A stretch of 64,000 nucleotides of DNA, taken from contig NZ_LT629749.1 in NCBI RefSeq assembly GCF_900105065.1, forward strand, positions 3,286,001-3,350,000. Direction: 5' to 3'. Origin of the DNA: Friedmanniella luteola (GTDB taxonomy: Bacteria; Actinomycetota; Actinomycetes; Propionibacteriales; Propionibacteriaceae). A program made the position numbers and the translations under genes. Below, piece after piece: positions 22,561 to 30,147 of the stretch (positions within the stretch are counted from its first letter, which is position 1; every line of letters begins with the position of its first letter). The notes beneath the pieces were generated by a model. It was not told the DNA's origin. It ran no database searches and worked only from the letters and a program-made list of their open reading frames with translations.

Positions 22561-23085
22561 ATGCCCCAGTTCGACGACACCGTCACCGCGAACATCGCCA
22601 CGTCCCTCGCCGAGATCCCCCACCCGTCGCTGCCGAAGGGCAGCAGCATCTACGGCGGCACCAAGGTCTTCCCGGACTACCAGGCGTCGGAGGGCCAGTC
22701 CTACTTCACCCTGGTGCACGGCATCGCCCACGAGTCCTCGGTCAGCTTCGTCGCCGTCCTGCAGGCCACCCGCGCGCTGCGCAAGGGCTTCGAGTCCGTC
22801 CTCTACTTCTACGGTCCCGGCTCGATCAACTGCCTGGCCACCCGCGGCTTCCCCACCACCGGTGACTCCGCCTTCCCGGGCGAGCAGAACCTCAACAACT
22901 CCATCGAGACCTTCATCGGCGAGGGCGGCACCGTCTTCTGCTGCCGCTTCGGCCTGGCCCTGCACGGCGGCCGCGAGGAGGACCTGATCGAGGGCGTCAT
23001 CCCCTGCCACCCGCTGGACGTGCAGGACGCCGTCATCCACTACGCCAACAAGGGCGCCATCATCAACTCCACCTACATGGTCTGA
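22561..23085 (+). CDS. MSMEG_0572/Sll0783 family nitrogen starvation response protein
   Basis: The 174-aa first gene of the Nit1C-type cluster. It matches the family named after Synechocystis Sll0783 and M. smegmatis MSMEG_0572 by GGTKVFPDYQASEGQSYFTL, VLYFYGPGSINCLATRGFP, and the tail AIINSTYMV. In Synechocystis, Sll0783 is induced by nitrogen starvation and needed for polyhydroxybutyrate accumulation; its molecular activity is unknown. Several Cys residues (INCLATRG, VFCCRFG, IPCHPLD) could bind metal or act in catalysis. AGGAGG ends 8 nt before ATG 22561. The radical SAM gene follows after 31 nt. Confidence 0.92.
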   Translation: MPQFDDTVTANIATSLAEIPHPSLPKGSSIYGGTKVFPDYQASEGQSYFTLVHGIAHESSVSFVAVLQATRALRKGFESVLYFYGPGSINCLATRGFPTTGDSAFPGEQNLNNSIETFIGEGGTVFCCRFGLALHGGREEDLIEGVIPCHPLDVQDAVIHYANKGAIINSTYMV

Positions 23086-23116: not shown

Positions 23117-24175
23117 ATGAGCACCAGCACCCGCGTCGACCTGGCGGTCCTGGGCGTCCGCGGCCGAACCCCGGTCAGCCGGGTCGCCGGCGCCGGCCCC
23201 AGCGACGACGGCCACGTGCTGATCGACGGTCTGAGCGCCGCGCTGCCGATCAACGACACCAGCCCCTACTTCCTGGACGAGCGCGGCCGGATCACCCTCG
23301 ACGGCGCCGACATCGGCCTGGACGTCGACCTCGTCGAACGCCCCCGGTTCTACGACCTGGCCACCGCCGACGGCGTCCCCTACGAGCAGATCGCCCGGCT
23401 GCACGGCCGGGACGTGCTGGCCACCACCGTCGTGCAGACCTGCGTCCGCTACGCCGAGGACCAGCGCTGCCGGTTCTGCGCCATCGAGGCGTCCCTGGCC
23501 GCGGGCAGCACGGTGGCGGTCAAGAAGCCGGCCGACCTGGCCGAGGTCGCGGCCGCCGCGGTCGCCCACGACGGCGTCCGGCAGATGGTGATGACGACCG
23601 GCACCTCCGCCGGCCGCGACCGCGGCGCCACCCACCTCGCCCGCTGCGTCCGGGCGGTCAAGGCCGCGGTGCCCTGGCTGCCGGTGCAGGTGCAGTGCGA
23701 GCCGCCCGGGGACCTCGCGACGATCACCGAGCTGCGCGAGGCCGGGGCCGACTCCATCGGCATCCACGTCGAGTCGCTCGACGACGAGGTCCGCCGCCGC
23801 TGGATGCCGGGCAAGGGCGGCGTCAGCCTCGACGAGTACCGGGCCGCCTGGGCCGAGGCGGTCCGCGTGTTCGGCCGCAACCAGGTCTCGACCTACCTGA
23901 TCGTCGGCCTCGGGGAGGACCCGGACGCCCTGGTCGCCGGGGCCGCCGAGCTGGTGGCCCTGGGCGTGTACCCGTTCGTCGTGCCGTTCCGGCCGTTGGC
24001 CGGGACGCTCGCCACCACCGTGGACGGGGCGACCGCGCCGGACCCGGCCGTCGTCGCGGACGTCACCGACCGGGTGGCCCGGCTGCTGGTCGCGGCCGGG
24101 ATGACGTCGGCGGGGCAGAAGGCCGGCTGCGCGGCCTGCGGGGCGTGCAGCACGCTCAAGAGCGCGGGGGCCTGA
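23117..24175 (+). CDS. MSMEG_0568 family radical SAM protein
   Basis: A 352-aa radical SAM-type enzyme, distantly like biotin synthase. The cluster cysteines are Cys109, Cys118 and Cys121 in TCVRYAEDQRCRFC: spacing Cx8Cx2C rather than the canonical Cx3Cx2C. QMVMTTGTSAGRDRGATHL is the SAM-binding GGE-like region, VQCEPPGDL and LIVGLGEDP line the barrel, and the C-terminus has Cys338, Cys341 and Cys344 (CAACGAC), which could ligate an auxiliary cluster. The substrate is unknown. The stop TGA shares its A with the ATG of the next gene. MSMEG_0568-type proteins occur only with this cluster as far as I know. Confidence 0.92.
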   Translation: MSTSTRVDLAVLGVRGRTPVSRVAGAGPSDDGHVLIDGLSAALPINDTSPYFLDERGRITLDGADIGLDVDLVERPRFYDLATADGVPYEQIARLHGRDVLATTVVQTCVRYAEDQRCRFCAIEASLAAGSTVAVKKPADLAEVAAAAVAHDGVRQMVMTTGTSAGRDRGATHLARCVRAVKAAVPWLPVQVQCEPPGDLATITELREAGADSIGIHVESLDDEVRRRWMPGKGGVSLDEYRAAWAEAVRVFGRNQVSTYLIVGLGEDPDALVAGAAELVALGVYPFVVPFRPLAGTLATTVDGATAPDPAVVADVTDRVARLLVAAGMTSAGQKAGCAACGACSTLKSAGA

Positions 24176-25587
24176 TGACCTTCGACGTCGAGGTGCTCAC
24201 CCGCGGGCTGGTCGGCGCCGCACCGGCCGCCCCGGCCGTCACCGTGGCCGAGGCCGGGACGGCGGCCGAGCTCGAGGCGGCCGCCCGGCTCCGGCACGCC
24301 ACCTTCGTCGCCGAGCAGGGGCTCTTCGCCCGGCACGACCGGGACGACGTCGACGACGACCCCCGGGCGGTGACCCTGGTGGCCCGGGCGGACGACGGCA
24401 GCGTCCTCGGCACCGTCCGGCTGGCCCCCGCCACGGCCGTCGACGCGGGCTGGTGGACGGGCAGCCGGCTGGCCGTCCGGCCGGACGCGCGCGGCCACGC
24501 CCTGGGCGTCGGCTCGGCCCTGGTGCGGGCCGCCTGCGCCCACGCCGAGGCCCGGGGGGTGCTGCGCTTCGACGCCCACGTGCAGCCCCAGAACTCCCGC
24601 CTGTTCAGCCGGCTCGGCTGGCTGCGGCTGGACGACGCGCTGGTGCACGGGCACCCGCACGTGCTGATGACCTGGCCGGTGCGCCGGGTCGCGGACCTGG
24701 TCGCGCGGACGAAGGCCCCGCTGGGCGTGACCCTGGGCGCCCTCGCCCGGGGGGACGCCGCACTCGGCGGTCCCGGGTTCCGCGGTGACGACGGCGCCCC
24801 GGTGCCGGGCAGCGACCTGGTCGCGGTCACCGACGCGATCATCCCGTCGATGGTGGAGCGTGACCCGGAGTGGGCGGGCTGGTGCGCCGTCCTGGTCAAC
24901 CTCAACGACCTGGGCGCCATGGGCGCGGAGCCGGTGGGGCTGCTGGACAGCCTCGGGGCCCGCGACCGCTCCTTCGCCACGAGGGTCGTGCACGGGCTCG
25001 CCGCCGCGGCCCGCGCCTGGGACGTCCCGGTGCTGGGCGGCCACACCCAGCTGGGCGTGCCCGCCGCGCTGTCCGTCACCGCACTGGGGCGGACGGCCAC
25101 GCCCGTCCCCGGAGGCGGCGGCCGGCCCGGCCACGAGGTCCGGCTGACCGCCGACCTCGGCGGCCGCTGGAGGCACGGCTACACCGGGCTGCAGTGGGAC
25201 TCCACCAGCGGGCGCTCCACCGCCGAGCTGCAGGCGATGGGCTCCTTCGTCGCCCGCACCGCTCCGGCCGCGGCCAAGGACGTCAGCATGGCCGGGGTCG
25301 TCGGCACCCTCGGCATGCTCGCCGAGGCCAGCGGCTGCGGGGCCACCCTCGACGTCGCCGACGTCCCCCGCCCCGAGGGCACCACGGCCGGGGACTGGCT
25401 GACCTGCTTCCCCGGCTCCGCGATGCTCACCGTCGACGTCCCCGGCACCGAGCCCGCCCCCGCGGGCCCGGCCACCTCCCGGGTCTGCGGCACCCTGCAC
25501 GACTCCCCCGGGGTCACCCTGCGCTGGCCCGACGGCCGGCTCACCGAGGCCCTCTCCCCCCACGTCACCGGACTAGGACCCGCATGA
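24175..25587 (+). CDS. MSMEG_0567/Sll0786 family GNAT acetyltransferase fused to AIR synthase-like domain
   Basis: A 470-aa fusion. Residues about 20-165 are a GNAT N-acetyltransferase: the acetyl-CoA loop is in LAVRPDARGHALGVGSAL and QPQNSRLFSRLGW is motif B. Residues about 175-465 resemble AIR synthase/PurM-like enzymes, which make ATP-dependent activated intermediates (VAVTDAIIPSMVE, VLVNLNDLGAMGAEPVG, LGGHTQLGVPAALSVTA, GVVGTLGMLAEASGCG). In Synechocystis the two halves are separate genes (sll0786, sll0787). ATG 24175 overlaps the previous stop by one base, and its TGA overlaps the next ATG (ATGA). Confidence 0.88.
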   Translation: MTFDVEVLTRGLVGAAPAAPAVTVAEAGTAAELEAAARLRHATFVAEQGLFARHDRDDVDDDPRAVTLVARADDGSVLGTVRLAPATAVDAGWWTGSRLAVRPDARGHALGVGSALVRAACAHAEARGVLRFDAHVQPQNSRLFSRLGWLRLDDALVHGHPHVLMTWPVRRVADLVARTKAPLGVTLGALARGDAALGGPGFRGDDGAPVPGSDLVAVTDAIIPSMVERDPEWAGWCAVLVNLNDLGAMGAEPVGLLDSLGARDRSFATRVVHGLAAAARAWDVPVLGGHTQLGVPAALSVTALGRTATPVPGGGGRPGHEVRLTADLGGRWRHGYTGLQWDSTSGRSTAELQAMGSFVARTAPAAAKDVSMAGVVGTLGMLAEASGCGATLDVADVPRPEGTTAGDWLTCFPGSAMLTVDVPGTEPAPAGPATSRVCGTLHDSPGVTLRWPDGRLTEALSPHVTGLGPA

Positions 25588-26624
25588 GCACCACGACGAA
25601 CCGGGCGCACGGCGCCACGCCCACATCCCCGGCGCGGGGCGCCACCGTCACATCCCCGGCGCGGGGCGCCACCGTCACATCCCCGGCGCGGGGCGCCACC
25701 GTCACAGCCCCGGCGCGGGGCGCCACCGTCATCACCGCCGTCTCGGCCGCCTTCGGCCGCGACCTGGACGAGGCCTACGCCGCCATCGCCACGATCGCCA
25801 TCGAGGCGCGCGAGCGCGGCACCGACCTGCTCGTGCTGCCCGAGGCGTGCCTCGGCGGCTACCTGCCCAGCCTCGGCAACGCGGGCGACGACGCCGCCAC
25901 CCGCGCCCGGCGGGCCCGCGACCTGCCCCCCGCCCTGGAGCTGGACGGCCCCGAGCTGCGCCGGGTGGCGAGCCTCGCCGGCGACATGCTGGTGCTCGTC
26001 GGCCTCCGCGAGGCCGCCGGCGCCGACACCTACAACACCGCCGTCGCGCTCACCGGGGACGGGGTGCTCGCCACCCACCGCAAGGTCCACCAGCCGCTCG
26101 GGGAGAACCTCTGCTACGCCGCGAGCGACGGCTTCGCCGCCTTCGACTCCCCCGTCGGCCGGATGGGCATGCTGATCTGCTACGACAAGGCGTTCCCGGA
26201 GGCCTCCCGCACGCTGGCCCTGGACGGCGCCGAGATCATCGCCGCCCTGTCGGCCTGGCCGGCGGCCCGCACGGCCACGGCGGCCGACCTCGAGGACGAC
26301 CGCTGGAAGAAGCGCCACGACCTCTACGACCAGGCCCGGGCCCTGGACAACCAGGTCGTCTGGGTGGCCTCCAACCAGGCCGGCACCTTCGGCTCGCTGC
26401 GCTTCGTGGGCAACGCGAAGGTGGTCGGGCCGGGCGGTGAGGTGCTGGCCGCGACCGGCGTGGGCCCCGGCCTCGCCACGGCCACCGTCGACGTCCAGCG
26501 CGAGCTCGCCGCCACCCGCGGCGGGATGTACGCCCTCCGCGACCGCCGGCCCTCGGCCTACCGGCTCGACGCCGTCCTGGGCGACTACCAGCCCGCCGCG
26601 CGACCGGAGCCGTCCTATGCCTGA
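25584..26624 (+). CDS. Nit6803-type nitrilase with repeated N-terminal extension
   Basis: A 346-aa carbon-nitrogen hydrolase. The catalytic triad is intact: Glu87 in LVLPEACLGG, Lys167 in HRKVHQPLGE and Cys199 in LICYDKAFPE. Cytosolic nitrilases of this cluster (Nit6803) hydrolyse nitriles to acids and ammonia; cyanide use has been linked to the Nit1C cluster. The domain begins near residue 49; residues 14-49 are four copies of a nine-residue repeat (TSPARGATV) encoded by 27-bp DNA repeats, not a normal nitrilase feature. ATG 25584 overlaps the previous stop. It is 8 bp longer than its neighbour's start, overlapping the next gene. Confidence 0.93.
   Translation: MSTTTNRAHGATPTSPARGATVTSPARGATVTSPARGATVTAPARGATVITAVSAAFGRDLDEAYAAIATIAIEARERGTDLLVLPEACLGGYLPSLGNAGDDAATRARRARDLPPALELDGPELRRVASLAGDMLVLVGLREAAGADTYNTAVALTGDGVLATHRKVHQPLGENLCYAASDGFAAFDSPVGRMGMLICYDKAFPEASRTLALDGAEIIAALSAWPAARTATAADLEDDRWKKRHDLYDQARALDNQVVWVASNQAGTFGSLRFVGNAKVVGPGGEVLAATGVGPGLATATVDVQRELAATRGGMYALRDRRPSAYRLDAVLGDYQPAARPEPSYA
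25623..25730. repeat. 27-bp tandem repeat, four units, inside the nitrilase gene
   Basis: Units start at 25623, 25650, 25677 and 25704 and differ by one base in the last. The 27-bp length keeps the frame, so unit number changes only linker length. Confidence 0.97.
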
Positions 26625-26904
26625 GATGACGTTCACCAGCCGCTGGCCCGACGGCCACGAGCTCGTCAGCTACTCCCCCTCCCTGGTCGTGCACGACCAC
26701 CTGGAGGCGGGCGGCCGGTACCCGGTGGCGGAGTTCGTCGCCCGCTCGCGGACGGCCCTGGAGACGGCCAGCGAGCGGGTCCGGGCCCGCTACGGGGTGC
26801 CCTGCTCGCGGGCCGCCGCCTCGCTCGCCGCCATCGAGGCCCGCGCGGCCGGCCTGGACGGCGACGTCGAGGTGACGGCGCTGCGACCGGAGCGGGCGGC
26901 GTGA
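26617..26904 (+). CDS. MSMEG_0570 family nitrogen starvation response protein
   Basis: A 95-aa protein of unknown function found with this cluster. TFTSRWPDGHELVSYSPSLVV and HLEAGGRYPVAEFVARS are the recognisable parts, and VPCSRAAASLAAIEA is a Cys-containing helix. No membrane segment or signal. ATG 26617 overlaps the nitrilase by 8 nt; a second ATG lies three codons later. Its stop overlaps the GTG of the flavoprotein (GTGA). The function is unknown. Confidence 0.85.
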   Translation: MPEMTFTSRWPDGHELVSYSPSLVVHDHLEAGGRYPVAEFVARSRTALETASERVRARYGVPCSRAAASLAAIEARAAGLDGDVEVTALRPERAA

Positions 26905-28211
26905 GCACCCTCGACGCGAGCCCGTCGCACGTCCCGGTCGTCGTCGTCGGCGCCGGCCAGGCCGGCCTGGCCGCCAGCTGGTACCTCAGCCGGCACGGGG
27001 TCGAGCACGTCGTGCTGGAGCGGGACACCGCCGCGCACGCCTGGCAGGACAGCCGCTGGGACCACTTCACCCTGGTCACCCCCAACTGGCAGTGCCGGCT
27101 GCCCGGCTTCCCCTACCCCGGTCCCGACCCCGACGGGTTCATGACGCGGGAGCAGGTGGTGGCCTACCTCGCGGACTACGTGCGGCTGGTCGACCCCCCG
27201 CTGCGGGAGCACGTCACGGTCACCTCGGTGCAGCAGGACGCGGACGGCGGCTTCCTGGTGGGCCTGCGCCCTTCGACAGGCTCAGGGCACGGCCCGACAG
27301 GCTCAGGGGCCGGTGAGGTCCTGCACACCGACCAGGTGGTCGTGGCCACGGGCGGCTACCACGACCCGCGGGTGCCGCGGCTGGCCGACCGGCTGCCCGC
27401 CGACCTGGTGCAGGTCCACTCGTCCGCCTACCGCAACGCGGACGCGCTGCCGCCCGGGGCCGTGCTGGTCGTCGGCACCGGCCAGTCGGGCGCGCAGATC
27501 GCCGAGGACCTGCACCTCGAGGGGCGCCGGGTCCACCTCGTCGTCGGCTCGGCGCCGCGGGTCGCCCGGTTCTACCGGGGCCGCGACTGCGTCGCCTGGC
27601 TCGAGGACATGGGCACCTACGACGTCCCCGTCCAGCAGCAGCCCGGGGGGCTGGCGGCCCGGGAGAAGACGAACCACTACGTGACCGGCCGCGACGGCGG
27701 CCGGGACATCGACCTGCGCGCCTTCGCCCTCGACGGGATGCGGCTCCACGGCCGGCTCGTCGGCTGCACCGGCGGCCGGCTGGAGATCGCGCCCACCCTG
27801 GAGGCGTCGCTGGACGCCGCGGACGCCGTCGCGGACTCGATCAAGGACGCCATCGACCGGCACATCGCCGCGCTGGGCCTGGCGGCGCCGACGGAGCCCC
27901 GCTACACCCCGGTCTGGCGTCCCGAGGTCGAGTCGACGGAGCTCGACCTGGCGGCGGAGGGGGTCACGTCGGTCGTCTGGGCGGTCGGGTTCACCAGCAA
28001 CTACCGCTGGCTCCGGGTGCCCGTGTTCGACGGCGAGGGCCAGCCGTGCCACGAGCGCGGGGTGACGGCCGTCGAGGGGCTCTACTTCCTGGGTCTGCCG
28101 TGGCTGCACACCTGGGGCTCGGGCCGCTTCGCGGGCGTCGACCGGGACGCCGAGCACGTCGTCGCCCACCTCGCGGCTCGGGCGCGCACGCCGCAGGCCG
28201 CGCTGGGCTGA
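26901..28211 (+). CDS. MSMEG_0569 family flavin-dependent oxidoreductase
   Basis: A 436-aa flavin monooxygenase-like protein. FAD binds VVVGAGQAGLAASWYLS at residues 14-30, ATGGYHDPR is the second flavin motif and VVGTGQSGAQIAEDL the NADPH motif. DHFTLVTPNWQCRLPGFPYP is typical of the family. An in-frame insertion, PSTGSGHGPTGSGAG near residues 124-138, is encoded by two copies of a dispersed DNA repeat and interrupts the domain between FLVGLR and EVLHTDQ. GTG 26901 is coupled to the previous gene. Two bases after the stop the next gene starts. Confidence 0.92.
   Translation: MSTLDASPSHVPVVVVGAGQAGLAASWYLSRHGVEHVVLERDTAAHAWQDSRWDHFTLVTPNWQCRLPGFPYPGPDPDGFMTREQVVAYLADYVRLVDPPLREHVTVTSVQQDADGGFLVGLRPSTGSGHGPTGSGAGEVLHTDQVVVATGGYHDPRVPRLADRLPADLVQVHSSAYRNADALPPGAVLVVGTGQSGAQIAEDLHLEGRRVHLVVGSAPRVARFYRGRDCVAWLEDMGTYDVPVQQQPGGLAAREKTNHYVTGRDGGRDIDLRAFALDGMRLHGRLVGCTGGRLEIAPTLEASLDAADAVADSIKDAIDRHIAALGLAAPTEPRYTPVWRPEVESTELDLAAEGVTSVVWAVGFTSNYRWLRVPVFDGEGQPCHERGVTAVEGLYFLGLPWLHTWGSGRFAGVDRDAEHVVAHLAARARTPQAALG
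27269..27309. repeat. Dispersed element inserted in the flavoprotein gene
   Basis: CCCTTCGACAGGCTCAGGG (27269-27287) is followed by a second, shortened copy (CCGACAGGCTCAGGG, about 27294-27308). Relatives occur in intergenic DNA at 48482 and, inverted, at 60755. Confidence 0.85.
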
Positions 28212-28213
28212 GC

Positions 28214-29059
28214 GTGGCGCTCACCCGCATCGGCGCGGTCGCCGGCCACTTCGGCCGCGACGTCGACCGCACCCTGGCCAAGCTGGCCGGCATCATCGCG
28301 TCCGCCCGGCGCGACGGGCTGGACCTGCTCGTCCTGCCCGGCGCGACCGTGGGCGGCTACATCCCCGACCTGCGCCACCCCGGCCTCGACGACCTGCCGC
28401 CGACGCTGACCCTGGACGGGCCGGAGCTGGCGACGCTGCGCCGGCTGGCCGGCCCGCTCACCGTCTGCGTCGGCTTCTGCGAGCTGGCCGACGGGCTGCG
28501 CTACAACGCCGCCGTCTGCCTGAGCGGCGACGGCGTCCTCGGTCACCACCGCAAGGTCCACCAGCCCGCCGGCGAGCACTTCGCCTACGCGGCCGGCGAC
28601 GGCTTCGCCGCCTTCGACACCCCGGTCGGCCGGCTGGGCCTGCTCGTCGACTACGACAAGACGTTCCCCGAGTCCACGCGGACGCTCGCCCTCGACGGCG
28701 CCCGCGTCGTGGCCGCCCTCTCCGCCTGGCCGGCCAGCGTCACCGACCGTGCCGCCCGGATCACCGAGGACCGGCAGTCCCGGCTTTTCGACCTGTACGA
28801 CGCGGCCCGCGCGGCGGAGAACCAGGTGGTGCTCGCCTCCGCCAACCAGACCGGGGTGCTCGGCGACCTCCGCTTCCTCGGCCAGGCCAAGGTCGTCGGG
28901 CCCGGCGGCGACGTGCTGGCCCGGACCTGGTCGAAGGGCGCGCTGGCCCGCGCCGACGTCGACGTCGACGCGGAGGTGGACCGGGCCCGGCGCGTGCTCT
29001 CCCACCTGGACGAGCGCCGGCCCTCCGCCTACCGGCTGGACGGCCCGGTGCCCGCGTGA
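28214..29059 (+). CDS. Catalytically degenerate nitrilase-fold protein (MSMEG_0566-like)
   Basis: A 281-aa paralogue of the nitrilase two genes upstream, alignable along its whole length (GDGVLGHHRKVHQPAGE, FPESTRTLALDGARVVAALS). Of the triad, Lys114 remains, but the catalytic Glu is Gly43 (LVLPGATVGGY against LVLPEACLGGY) and the nucleophile Cys is Asp146 (LLVDYDKTFPE against LICYDKAFPE). The codons GGC and GAC read cleanly, so these are not frameshifts. It should not hydrolyse C-N bonds by the nitrilase mechanism; a regulatory or heteromeric role is the best guess. GTG 28214 begins 2 nt after the flavoprotein stop; the 3' end overlaps the glycosyltransferase (GTGA). Confidence 0.9.
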   Translation: MALTRIGAVAGHFGRDVDRTLAKLAGIIASARRDGLDLLVLPGATVGGYIPDLRHPGLDDLPPTLTLDGPELATLRRLAGPLTVCVGFCELADGLRYNAAVCLSGDGVLGHHRKVHQPAGEHFAYAAGDGFAAFDTPVGRLGLLVDYDKTFPESTRTLALDGARVVAALSAWPASVTDRAARITEDRQSRLFDLYDAARAAENQVVLASANQTGVLGDLRFLGQAKVVGPGGDVLARTWSKGALARADVDVDAEVDRARRVLSHLDERRPSAYRLDGPVPA

Positions 29060-30147
29060 GGGTCGCGCTGCTCACCTACTCGACCCGGCCCCGCGGCGGC
29101 GTCGTGCACACCCTGGCCCTGGCCGAGGCCCTCGCCGCCCTGGGCGTCGACGTCACCGTGTGGACCCTCGGCCGCGGCGGCGACGCCGCCTTCTTCCGGC
29201 CGGTCGACCCGGCCGTCCGGCTGCGGGTGGTCGACCTCCCGGCCCTCGAGGACGAGGAGGTCGGGGCGCGCATCGTCCGCTCCATCGCCACCCTGCGCGC
29301 CGCGTTCGACGAGCACCGGGCCGCCGGCGGGCGCTACGACGTCGTGCACGCCCAGGACTGCATCAGCGCCAACGCCGTCGACCGCTGCGTCCGCACCATC
29401 CACCACCTCGACCACTTCACCACCCCCGAGCTGGCCGCCTGCCACGAGCGCGCCGTCGTCCGGCCCTTCGCGCACGTCTGCGTCTCCGCCGCGGTGGCGC
29501 GGGAGGTCGAGCAGGGCTGGGGCCTGCGGCCGACCGTGATCGGGAACGGCGTCGAGGCGGAGCGGTTCGCCGCCGCCGCCCACGACGCCGCCGGCCGACG
29601 GCGCTGGCGGGAGCAGGTCGGCGGGCGCTACGTGCTGGCCGTCGGGGGCATCGAGCCGCGCAAGGGCAGCCTCGACCTGCTGGAGGCCGTCGCCCTGCTG
29701 CGGAGGGACGAGCCGGACCTGCAGCTGGTGGTGGCCGGCGGGGAGACCCTGTTCGACTACCGCGGCTACCGGGCCGCCTTCGACGAGCGCGCCGAGGCCC
29801 TCGGGGTCCGGCCCCAGGTCCTCGGCCCCGTCGACCACGACGCCCTGCCGTCCCTGGTCGCCGGCTGCGGTGCGCTGGGCTTCGTCTCCACCCAGGAGGG
29901 GTTCGGGCTGGCGGCGATGGAGGGACTGGCCGCCGGGGTGCCCGTGGTCGTCCGCGAGCTGCCCGTGCTGACCGAGGTGTTCGGGCCGCACGTCCGCTAC
30001 GGCTCCGACCCCGGCACGATCGCGGCCGCGCTCCGCGAGGCCCTCGACGCGGGCCCGCTGCCCGGTGGGCAGGCCTTCGCCCGGGGCCACACCTGGGCGG
30101 CCGCGGCCCGCGCACACCTGGCCTTCTACGCCGGCCTGGAACCTTGA
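29056..30147 (+). CDS. MSMEG_0565 family glycosyltransferase
   Basis: A 363-aa GT4-type glycosyltransferase with GT-B fold. LLTYSTRPRGGVVHTLALAE contains the N-terminal Gly loop for the nucleotide-sugar, LAVGGIEPRKGSLDLLEAV the hinge and QEGFGLAAMEGLAAGVPVV the EX7E donor motif near residues 279-297. The product or acceptor is unknown; the gene ends the cluster, so it may act on the product of the upstream enzymes. GTG 29056 overlaps the previous stop by 4 nt. It completes the actinobacterial form of the cluster. Confidence 0.9.
   Translation: MRVALLTYSTRPRGGVVHTLALAEALAALGVDVTVWTLGRGGDAAFFRPVDPAVRLRVVDLPALEDEEVGARIVRSIATLRAAFDEHRAAGGRYDVVHAQDCISANAVDRCVRTIHHLDHFTTPELAACHERAVVRPFAHVCVSAAVAREVEQGWGLRPTVIGNGVEAERFAAAAHDAAGRRRWREQVGGRYVLAVGGIEPRKGSLDLLEAVALLRRDEPDLQLVVAGGETLFDYRGYRAAFDERAEALGVRPQVLGPVDHDALPSLVAGCGALGFVSTQEGFGLAAMEGLAAGVPVVVRELPVLTEVFGPHVRYGSDPGTIAAALREALDAGPLPGGQAFARGHTWAAAARAHLAFYAGLEP

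Follow-up and report, generated by a model that had tools for sequence, protein, structure and literature searches.

The C-N hydrolase mechanism requires a Glu, a Lys and a Cys. What is the role of a protein of this fold in which the Glu and the Cys are gone, and which is encoded near a paralogue that keeps all three? This question was raised by a locus of Friedmanniella luteola, which was analyzed within a stretch of 64,000 nucleotides (contig NZ_LT629749.1, positions 3,286,001 to 3,350,000), here called the window. We refer to the two proteins as the thiol-less protein and the active twin. Our preferred reading, to which we assign a probability of about 0.52, is that the pocket has been repurposed: it would bind a metabolite of the pathway without thioester chemistry, and the protein would act without hydrolysis as a regulatory or carrier subunit. 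The thiol-less protein is probably a ligand-binding protein put to new use, and its frequent label as an amidase would then be wrong. The features are collected in Table 1.

Table 1. Coordinates and assignments of the features. A locus label precedes positions that lie outside the window.
Feature	Position	Strand	Basis
MSMEG_0572/Sll0783 family nitrogen starvation response protein (TIGR04044)	22561-23085	+	249.1 bits, cut-off 109.85
MSMEG_0568 family radical SAM protein (TIGR04043)	23117-24175	+	513.9 bits, cut-off 303.7
GNAT and AIR-synthase-like fusion, MSMEG_0567 family (TIGR04045, TIGR04050)	24172-25587	+	105.9 bits (cut-off 68.45), 491.7 bits (cut-off 312.2)
Active-type paralogue, amidase/carbamoylase-like (active twin)	25584-26624	+	Glu87-Lys167-Glu174-Cys199; PF00795, 1.5e-39
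MSMEG_0570 family protein (TIGR04042)	26617-26904	+	113.1 bits, cut-off 79.85
MSMEG_0569 family flavin-dependent oxidoreductase (TIGR04046)	26901-28211	+	640.9 bits, cut-off 498.35
Thiol-less CN-hydrolase paralogue	28214-29059	+	PF00795, 4.4e-29; Gly43-Lys114-Glu121-Asp146; MSMEG_0566-like by gene order
MSMEG_0565 family glycosyltransferase (TIGR04047)	29056-30147	+	435.2 bits, cut-off 259.85; start overlaps the thiol-less stop
Amidohydrolase-like ORF, distant TIGR04044 cluster	L102 10758-11684	+	name by inspection
Amidohydrolase-like ORF, distant TIGR04044 cluster	L103 8057-8917	-	name by inspection
FAD-monooxygenase-like ORF, twin-only cluster	L131 10518-12116	+	
FAD-monooxygenase-like ORF, twin-only cluster	L137 10495-12108	+	
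FAD-monooxygenase-like ORF, twin-only cluster	L141 7848-9563	-	

The thiol-less gene begins with GTG and encodes 281 amino acids; further GTG starts lie upstream in the same frame, back to 28046. The flavoprotein gene upstream ends at 28211. A BLASTP comparison with the active twin revealed 158 identical residues over 282 columns (56%, E 2e-96), in agreement with the original prediction, which had described the two as full-length paralogues. At the catalytic columns the thiol-less protein carries Gly43, Lys114, Glu121 and Asp146, where the active twin has Glu87, Lys167, Glu174 and Cys199. The exchange of Glu for Gly43 and of Cys for Asp146, with Lys114 kept, had been read correctly, positions included; the retained second Glu (Glu121) had not been mentioned. 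The claim of clean codons in a coupled gene of normal codon use was borne out as well. Gly43 is encoded by GGC and Asp146 by GAC, the TGA stop (29057-29059) overlaps the GTG start of the next gene at 29056, and GC3 is 0.99 in the thiol-less gene and 0.98 in the active twin gene.

By profile and fold the thiol-less protein belongs to the CN hydrolase superfamily (PF00795, 102 bits, cut-off 23.2), and it lacks the catalytic Glu-Lys-Cys set of this superfamily, with Gly43, Lys114 and Asp146 in its place. It is a conserved protein with its catalytic residues lost, as expected of a pseudoenzyme. For the thiol-less protein, no NCBIfam model scored above its cut-off. With the model of the Nit6803 family nitrilases (TIGR04048, cut-off 502.6) the thiol-less protein reached 23.4 bits and the active twin 41.8 bits; with that of the N-carbamoylputrescine amidases (TIGR03381, cut-off 410.25) the scores were 72 and 84.1 bits. 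Thus, neither protein is a member of either family. Nit6803/Sll0784 (3wuy), the canonical Nit1C nitrilase, comes from the same kind of gene cluster. The Cys motif of the active twin reads CYDKAFPE, and true nitrilases are known to have CWE at this motif. The nearest solved structures of the active twin by sequence are PH0642 and N-carbamoylputrescine amidohydrolase, and amidase/carbamoylase-like would be a safer name than nitrilase. The neighbor had been called an intact nitrilase; its Glu, Lys and Cys are indeed intact, but it is amidase/carbamoylase-like and not of the Nit6803 type. A mixed spiral filament of the two proteins, as once suggested, finds no support in this family assignment and Cys motif or in the closest solved structures, an amidase and an octameric amidohydrolase. 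The active twin also has an N-terminal extension with near-identical units of nine residues, SPARGATVT (window about 25620-25730), and its residues 1-41 are predicted to be disordered (pLDDT under 50).

Both genes stand in a larger cluster. The MSMEG_0572, radical SAM, GNAT/AIR-synthase, MSMEG_0570 and flavoprotein families that together mark a Nit1C/gpr-type cluster are all present in the window, along with TIGR04047. The Nit1C kind of cluster was described with one nitrilase per cluster (PMC1199592). In M. smegmatis the cluster comprises MSMEG_0565-0572, is named gpr and is driven by GlnR (PMC6039565, PMC4222082); its deletion lowered peroxide resistance and the NADPH/NADP ratio (PMC6039565). 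The literature consulted connects such clusters with nitrogen starvation, with the assimilation of cyanide in Pseudomonas and with the peroxide resistance of M. smegmatis biofilms, and contains no solved reaction for them. As judged by gene order and numbering only, MSMEG_0566 is the counterpart of the thiol-less gene. It was called a putative aliphatic amidase (PMC6039565) and has values of 2.96 and 8.94 in two nitrogen-limitation tables (PMC4617892, PMC4222082). M. smegmatis papers list it as an aliphatic amidase, and one adds that it might feed nitrogen assimilation.

A few observations on the cluster are added here. A selenocysteine read-through of the MSMEG_0571 stop into 0569 has been proposed for M. 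smegmatis (PMC6039565). In the window, the active twin overlaps a separate 0570-type gene that scores above its cut-off alone, which fits separate genes better in this genome. Within the flavoprotein gene, GACAGGCTCAGGG occurs twice and codes for TGSGHGPTGSGAG (window about 27268-27312); it resembles a dispersed genomic repeat. Of three loci from distant TIGR04044 clusters of the same phylum, two have a TIM-barrel amidohydrolase-like ORF, identified by inspection, between the radical SAM and 0572-type genes. The motif search gave no nitrilase match in these distant clusters, and none was seen in the three loci inspected.

The exchanged residues are not a peculiarity of this strain. All of the 80 close relatives from a contig scan (the best 80 of at least 301) had Asp at the nucleophile column and no Glu at position 43, where one of six search patterns of the scan contains the Asp, so that it leans to such proteins. 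Close homologues that keep Glu and Cys, which the original prediction had named as evidence against it, were not among these 80. An unbiased genome sample yielded 32 pairs of paralogues, and each of the 31 with sequences consisted of one Asp-type and one Glu/Cys-type protein, with one of the 31 active rows ending short at the Glu column. Contig scan and genome searches together gave 255 CN-hydrolase proteins of the group. The thiol-less protein was the best match for 118 of them: 115 had Asp without Glu, and three were Glu/Cys-type proteins from the class of G217, which fell outside the thiol-less clade on the tree. The other 140 of the 255 all had Cys; 138 had Glu too, and two were truncated at the Glu column. 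A loss in this strain only is ruled out by the 80 relatives and by the 115 of 118 best matches. The group of 115 is itself defined by Asp at column 146, and the independent counts are the 80 of 80, the 115 of 118 and the tree. The M. smegmatis label of aliphatic amidase conflicts with these sequences, in which the amidase nucleophile is missing throughout the clade.

Position 43 behaved differently from position 146. Among the 115 proteins, 99 read Asp-Lys-Glu-Asp and one Asp-Lys-Asp-Asp; in the others the first residue was Gly (10), Tyr (2), Gln, Asn or His (one each). Asp43 is the common state (100/115); Gly43 occurred in the genus of the window and a second time in a group from another family. 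Codon 43 was never GAG or GAA in the 114 distinct sequences among the 115, though both are one base away from the common GAC and GAT. The question whether Gly and Asp are conserved in relatives, posed with the original prediction, has a divided answer: Asp146 held in all 80 close relatives, whereas Gly43 is, by the alignment, a local variant and most members keep a carboxylate at this position.

In the phylogenetic analysis (67 of 100 rows, 30 drawn at random; L173_8803, og_L004, og_L006 and L180 left out), the thiol-less sequences formed one clade of 23 rows with a support of 100/96. Because no Cys-type row stood inside this clade, the Cys-to-Asp change looks like a single old event. Cluster-borne active twins formed a separate clade (30 rows, 86/87). 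Two more active groups, both from the class of G217, were recovered, one of cluster-borne (100/100) and one of stray genes (99/92). The branching order of the four groups was not resolved in the careful tree; a quick tree placed the stray active genes next to the thiol-less clade at 86, and in it L173_8803 fell among the active twins with a branch length of 10. The stray active-type relatives (L142, L144-L147, L149, L178 and L179) have Glu-Lys-Glu-Cys and no other cluster gene in the fetched stretch. All have Gln188 and most have Cys85/Cys102, as in the thiol-less clade, and they may resemble the active ancestor of this clade.

Median dN/dS values (Nei-Gojobori) were 0.327 for the thiol-less gene and 0.418 for the active twin. 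Of 2873 locus pairs, 2191 gave the lower value for the thiol-less gene; these pairs are non-independent, and their dS is near saturation. Mean pairwise identity was 67% in 51 thiol-less and 62% in 52 active representatives (85% identity cut). Comparison of the window with its nearest relative (L188) gave a dN/dS of 0.13 for the thiol-less and 0.18 for the active gene. With two other relatives of the window's genus the thiol-less gene was the faster one, with 0.37 versus 0.34 (L189) and 0.43 versus 0.31 (L051), and its identities to the window in three relatives were 76, 71-74 and 71%, versus 78% for the active twin. Constraint is strong across the thiol-less family, but it is not stronger than that of the twin within the window's own genus. 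We considered whether the gene is a decaying duplicate without function. The Cys is gone, the first Glu position is variable, and two of the three comparisons within the genus show the gene changing somewhat faster than its twin. As a general account, a decaying copy is nevertheless hardly credible to us, though a single strain may have lost expression, given the low dN/dS with the nearest relative, values that stay under 1 in all pairs viewed with the window, one well-supported clade, a conserved pocket and an intact frame in a coupled gene.

An AlphaFold2 prediction for the thiol-less protein had a pLDDT of 88.5, lowest at 178-182 and at the C-terminus. The top Foldseek match was MtCPA, an N-carbamoylputrescine amidohydrolase (PDB 5h8i-5h8l; E 5.2e-23, TM 0.84, 23% identity). 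MtCPA forms an octamer and, unlike the thiol-less protein, has Cys158 and Glu48; its entrance Glu187 aligns with Ser175. Among the top matches was also the Pyrococcus horikoshii amidase PH0642 (1j31; C146A variant 6ypa), which has 25% identity in the Foldseek comparison and by sequence matches residues 16-260. Its residue 146, a Cys in the native enzyme, aligns with Asp146. Pocket sites were assigned from the MtCPA pocket residues (PMC4812014) by one sequence alignment to this distant structure (23-24% identity to the thiol-less protein), and by this mapping Tyr49, Lys114, Pro118, Lys149, Ala171 and Trp172 were each found in 114 of 114 thiol-less sequences, Glu121 in 113 and Tyr147 in 112. The pocket, entropy and cysteine-pair counts use 114 sequences, with the over-extended row L173_8803 left out. 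In the active twins the same mapped residues were present in 123 or 124 of 124. The active twin (MSMEG_0571-like by gene order) shares the fold, nearly the same pocket walls, the Lys and the second Glu with the thiol-less protein, and differs from it by having the catalytic Glu and Cys.

Entropy was compared between the 51 thiol-less and 52 active representatives. The thiol-less clade had the lower values at residues 112-128, 143-153 (0.19 versus 0.31), 169-184 (0.72 versus 1.21), 185-203 (0.36 versus 0.77) and 217-232, and the higher ones at 39-53 (0.64 versus 0.59), 70-79 (1.71 versus 1.23) and 206-216 (0.89 versus 0.72). Of the six active-site segments, four vary less in the thiol-less clade than in the active twin. 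Columns 150, 188, 191 and 262 are mostly Thr, Gln, Leu and Leu in the thiol-less clade versus Ala, Trp, Arg and Met in the active twin. The 14 mapped pocket sites include three of the eight clade-distinguishing sites, namely 146, 150 and 262 (p 0.005 post hoc, and 0.037 when 146 is left out). Site 150 (Thr/Ala) aligns with MtCPA Trp162 and site 262 (Leu/Met) with Trp277, which enters the MtCPA pocket from the dimer mate (PMC4812014). Thr150, Arg179 and Lys241 are each present in 113 of 114 thiol-less sequences and are not so conserved in the active twin; the Lys241 position is Arg in six of eight stray active relatives. Read together, these data suggest that the pocket was kept and tuned, with only the thiol gone.

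A site kept this tightly would be expected also of an enzyme with new chemistry. Asp146, Lys114 and Glu121 might catalyze a non-thiol reaction, with the Asp as nucleophile or as general acid-base, and perform a pathway step of their own. The three residues vary as little as a catalytic site would (114, 114 and 113 of 114, Asp146 being the selection criterion of the set), the clade-specific conservation of Thr150, Arg179 and Lys241 points the same way, and in genome G515 a copy survives without the active twin or the radical SAM gene. Position 43, however, is Gly, Asn, Gln, His or Tyr in the members without Asp, the window included, and therefore a carboxylate there is dispensable. We know of no member of the nitrilase superfamily with an Asp nucleophile. 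An enzyme of different chemistry is unlikely in our estimate. Equally doubtful is its more specific form, in which the clade would be a new enzyme type on the nitrilase fold that uses Asp146, Lys114 and Glu121, together with the clade-specific Arg179 and Lys241, for a thiol-free missing step of the Nit1C/gpr pathway.

Two cysteines of the thiol-less protein, Cys85 (window 28466-28468) and Cys102 (window 28517-28519), were considered as substitutes for the lost thiol. Cys85 was conserved in 114 and Cys102 in 110 of 114 thiol-less sequences, with both in 110; among 125 active twins, 13 had both, 103 neither and nine Cys102 alone. The predicted neighboring strands 83-92 and 95-104 could set residue 85 opposite 102, and M. 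smegmatis requires the gpr cluster to resist peroxide (PMC6039565). An amidase that works via a relocated cysteine, or a protein made redox-sensitive through the pair, is still very improbable. Both cysteines lie on predicted strands, outside the pocket loops, and the pair, which is present in seven of eight stray active relatives as well, may be inherited.

The distribution of the two genes was determined in 394 genomes sampled evenly from the class. The thiol-less gene was present in 33 genomes, 32 of which also had the active twin, and the active twin in 48, 16 of them without the thiol-less gene; sequences covered 31 of the 32 pairs, the lone gene and 11 of the 16 twin-only genomes, the rest were assigned from the number of matches and their identity, and the sample includes fragmented assemblies. 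The active twin was located in the same fetched stretch in 109 of the 115 loci. For five of the other six (G846-G850) a Glu/Cys-type gene was found elsewhere in the genome. The sixth is G515 (98% complete), whose thiol-less gene lies among unrelated genes, and hence the gene does occur without its partner. Two twin-only genomes, G683 and G523, stand among bearers, as judged by the tree place of the active twin and by a genus label common to six pair-bearing genomes, respectively; loss of the thiol-less gene is therefore suggested for both. From the 32 of 33 genomes with the twin, the 16 of 48 without the thiol-less gene and the lone G515 it follows that the thiol-less gene is tied more closely to the pathway than the active twin is to the thiol-less gene. 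This co-occurrence is easier to reconcile with an accessory role in ligand binding, or with a separate step, than with an indispensable subunit, and a heteromer is compatible with it.

TIGR04046 was absent above cut-off in nine of 11 twin-only genomes searched. A rule that the thiol-less clade follows the 0569-type flavoprotein was rejected, as the 0569 type is retained, with no thiol-less gene beside it, in L138, L139 and six twin-only clusters from the class of G217. In three twin-only clusters the active twin and the glycosyltransferase are separated by an ORF of a different, FAD-monooxygenase-like type.

The same data bear on a tentative alternative in line with the original prediction, in which the thiol-less protein is a dead subunit that forms an obligate heteromer with the active twin and switches on or reshapes its activity. 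The trypanosome prozyme is reportedly a precedent for such a partner. A heteromer of this kind would agree with the 32 of 33 genomes that have both genes, with the twin in the same stretch or elsewhere in the genome in nearly all loci, and with the fold that is kept in the predicted model. In MtCPA the dimer mate gives Trp277 to the pocket (PMC4812014), and the twins have different residues at the corresponding site 262. Sorghum NIT4A/NIT4B2 are two nitrilase paralogues that act as one complex, though both are plant nitrilases (PMC5154151). An obligate partnership sits badly with the 16 of 48 twin-bearing genomes that lack the thiol-less gene, G683 and G523 among bearers included, and with G515, where the twin is missing. 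Fusion of the twins was dropped as evidence for a complex, with none in 75 two-gene loci. The next cluster gene downstream, meaning the next of eight gene types and not the next ORF, is the glycosyltransferase and not the twin in 113 of 115 loci, and a purely structural role would need no such conserved pocket.

We return to the repurposed pocket. The thiol-less protein is a member of a conserved, monophyletic CN-hydrolase branch in the Nit1C/gpr nitrogen-starvation cluster of many actinobacteria. Because no Cys thioester can form, it would be neither an amidase nor a nitrilase. The pocket may still bind the metabolite that the active twin binds, or a closely related compound, with Lys114, Glu121 and Asp146 in place of a covalent bond to hold it. 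Most likely, the protein would bind its ligand without hydrolysis and serve the pathway as a regulatory or carrier subunit, either in a homodimer or together with the active twin. Since a dimer mate can help to line the pocket of its neighbor in this fold, pairing of the two proteins would alter the specificity of the twin. Heteromer, sensor and Asp-based enzyme would all three be consistent with the sequence. Several findings count against the repurposed pocket: the lone gene in G515, the 16 of 48 twin genomes without it, the variable segments 39-53, 70-79 and 206-216 and the faster change in the window's genus. The original description as a pseudoenzyme stands as regards the catalytic residues, lost clade-wide under purifying selection and with a conserved pocket; the absence of catalysis itself we infer from these sequences.

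With pocket walls that hardly differ and a fixed exchange of Cys for Asp, the twins offer a natural probe for the pocket ligand. The thiol-less twin should hold this ligand without turnover, by which the metabolite of the pathway could be found. Within the literature searched, which covered few subscription journals and in part only excerpts, we found no mention of the missing Cys and no clade-wide Cys-to-Asp member of the amidase-like branch in a metabolic cluster. The mycobacterial Lnt homologue BCG_2279c is similar in that its nucleophile is altered and an active copy is encoded in the same genome, but there the change is Cys to Ser and the protein is a lipoprotein N-acyltransferase homologue, which could not replace BCG_2070c (PMC3850990).

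Two observations concern the spread of the cluster. In an Acidobacteriaceae MAG the cluster is divided between two contigs (L058 and L184) and follows the gene order of mycobacteria, so that these contigs may be contamination. On the Rhodococcus plasmids NZ_CP088909, NZ_AP026692, NZ_CP034156 and NZ_CP113952, two places each match the thiol-less protein, with E values up to 1e-30. Three of the four records label the match as carbon-nitrogen hydrolase family protein and one is unannotated, and the twin pair may be plasmid-borne in Rhodococcus.
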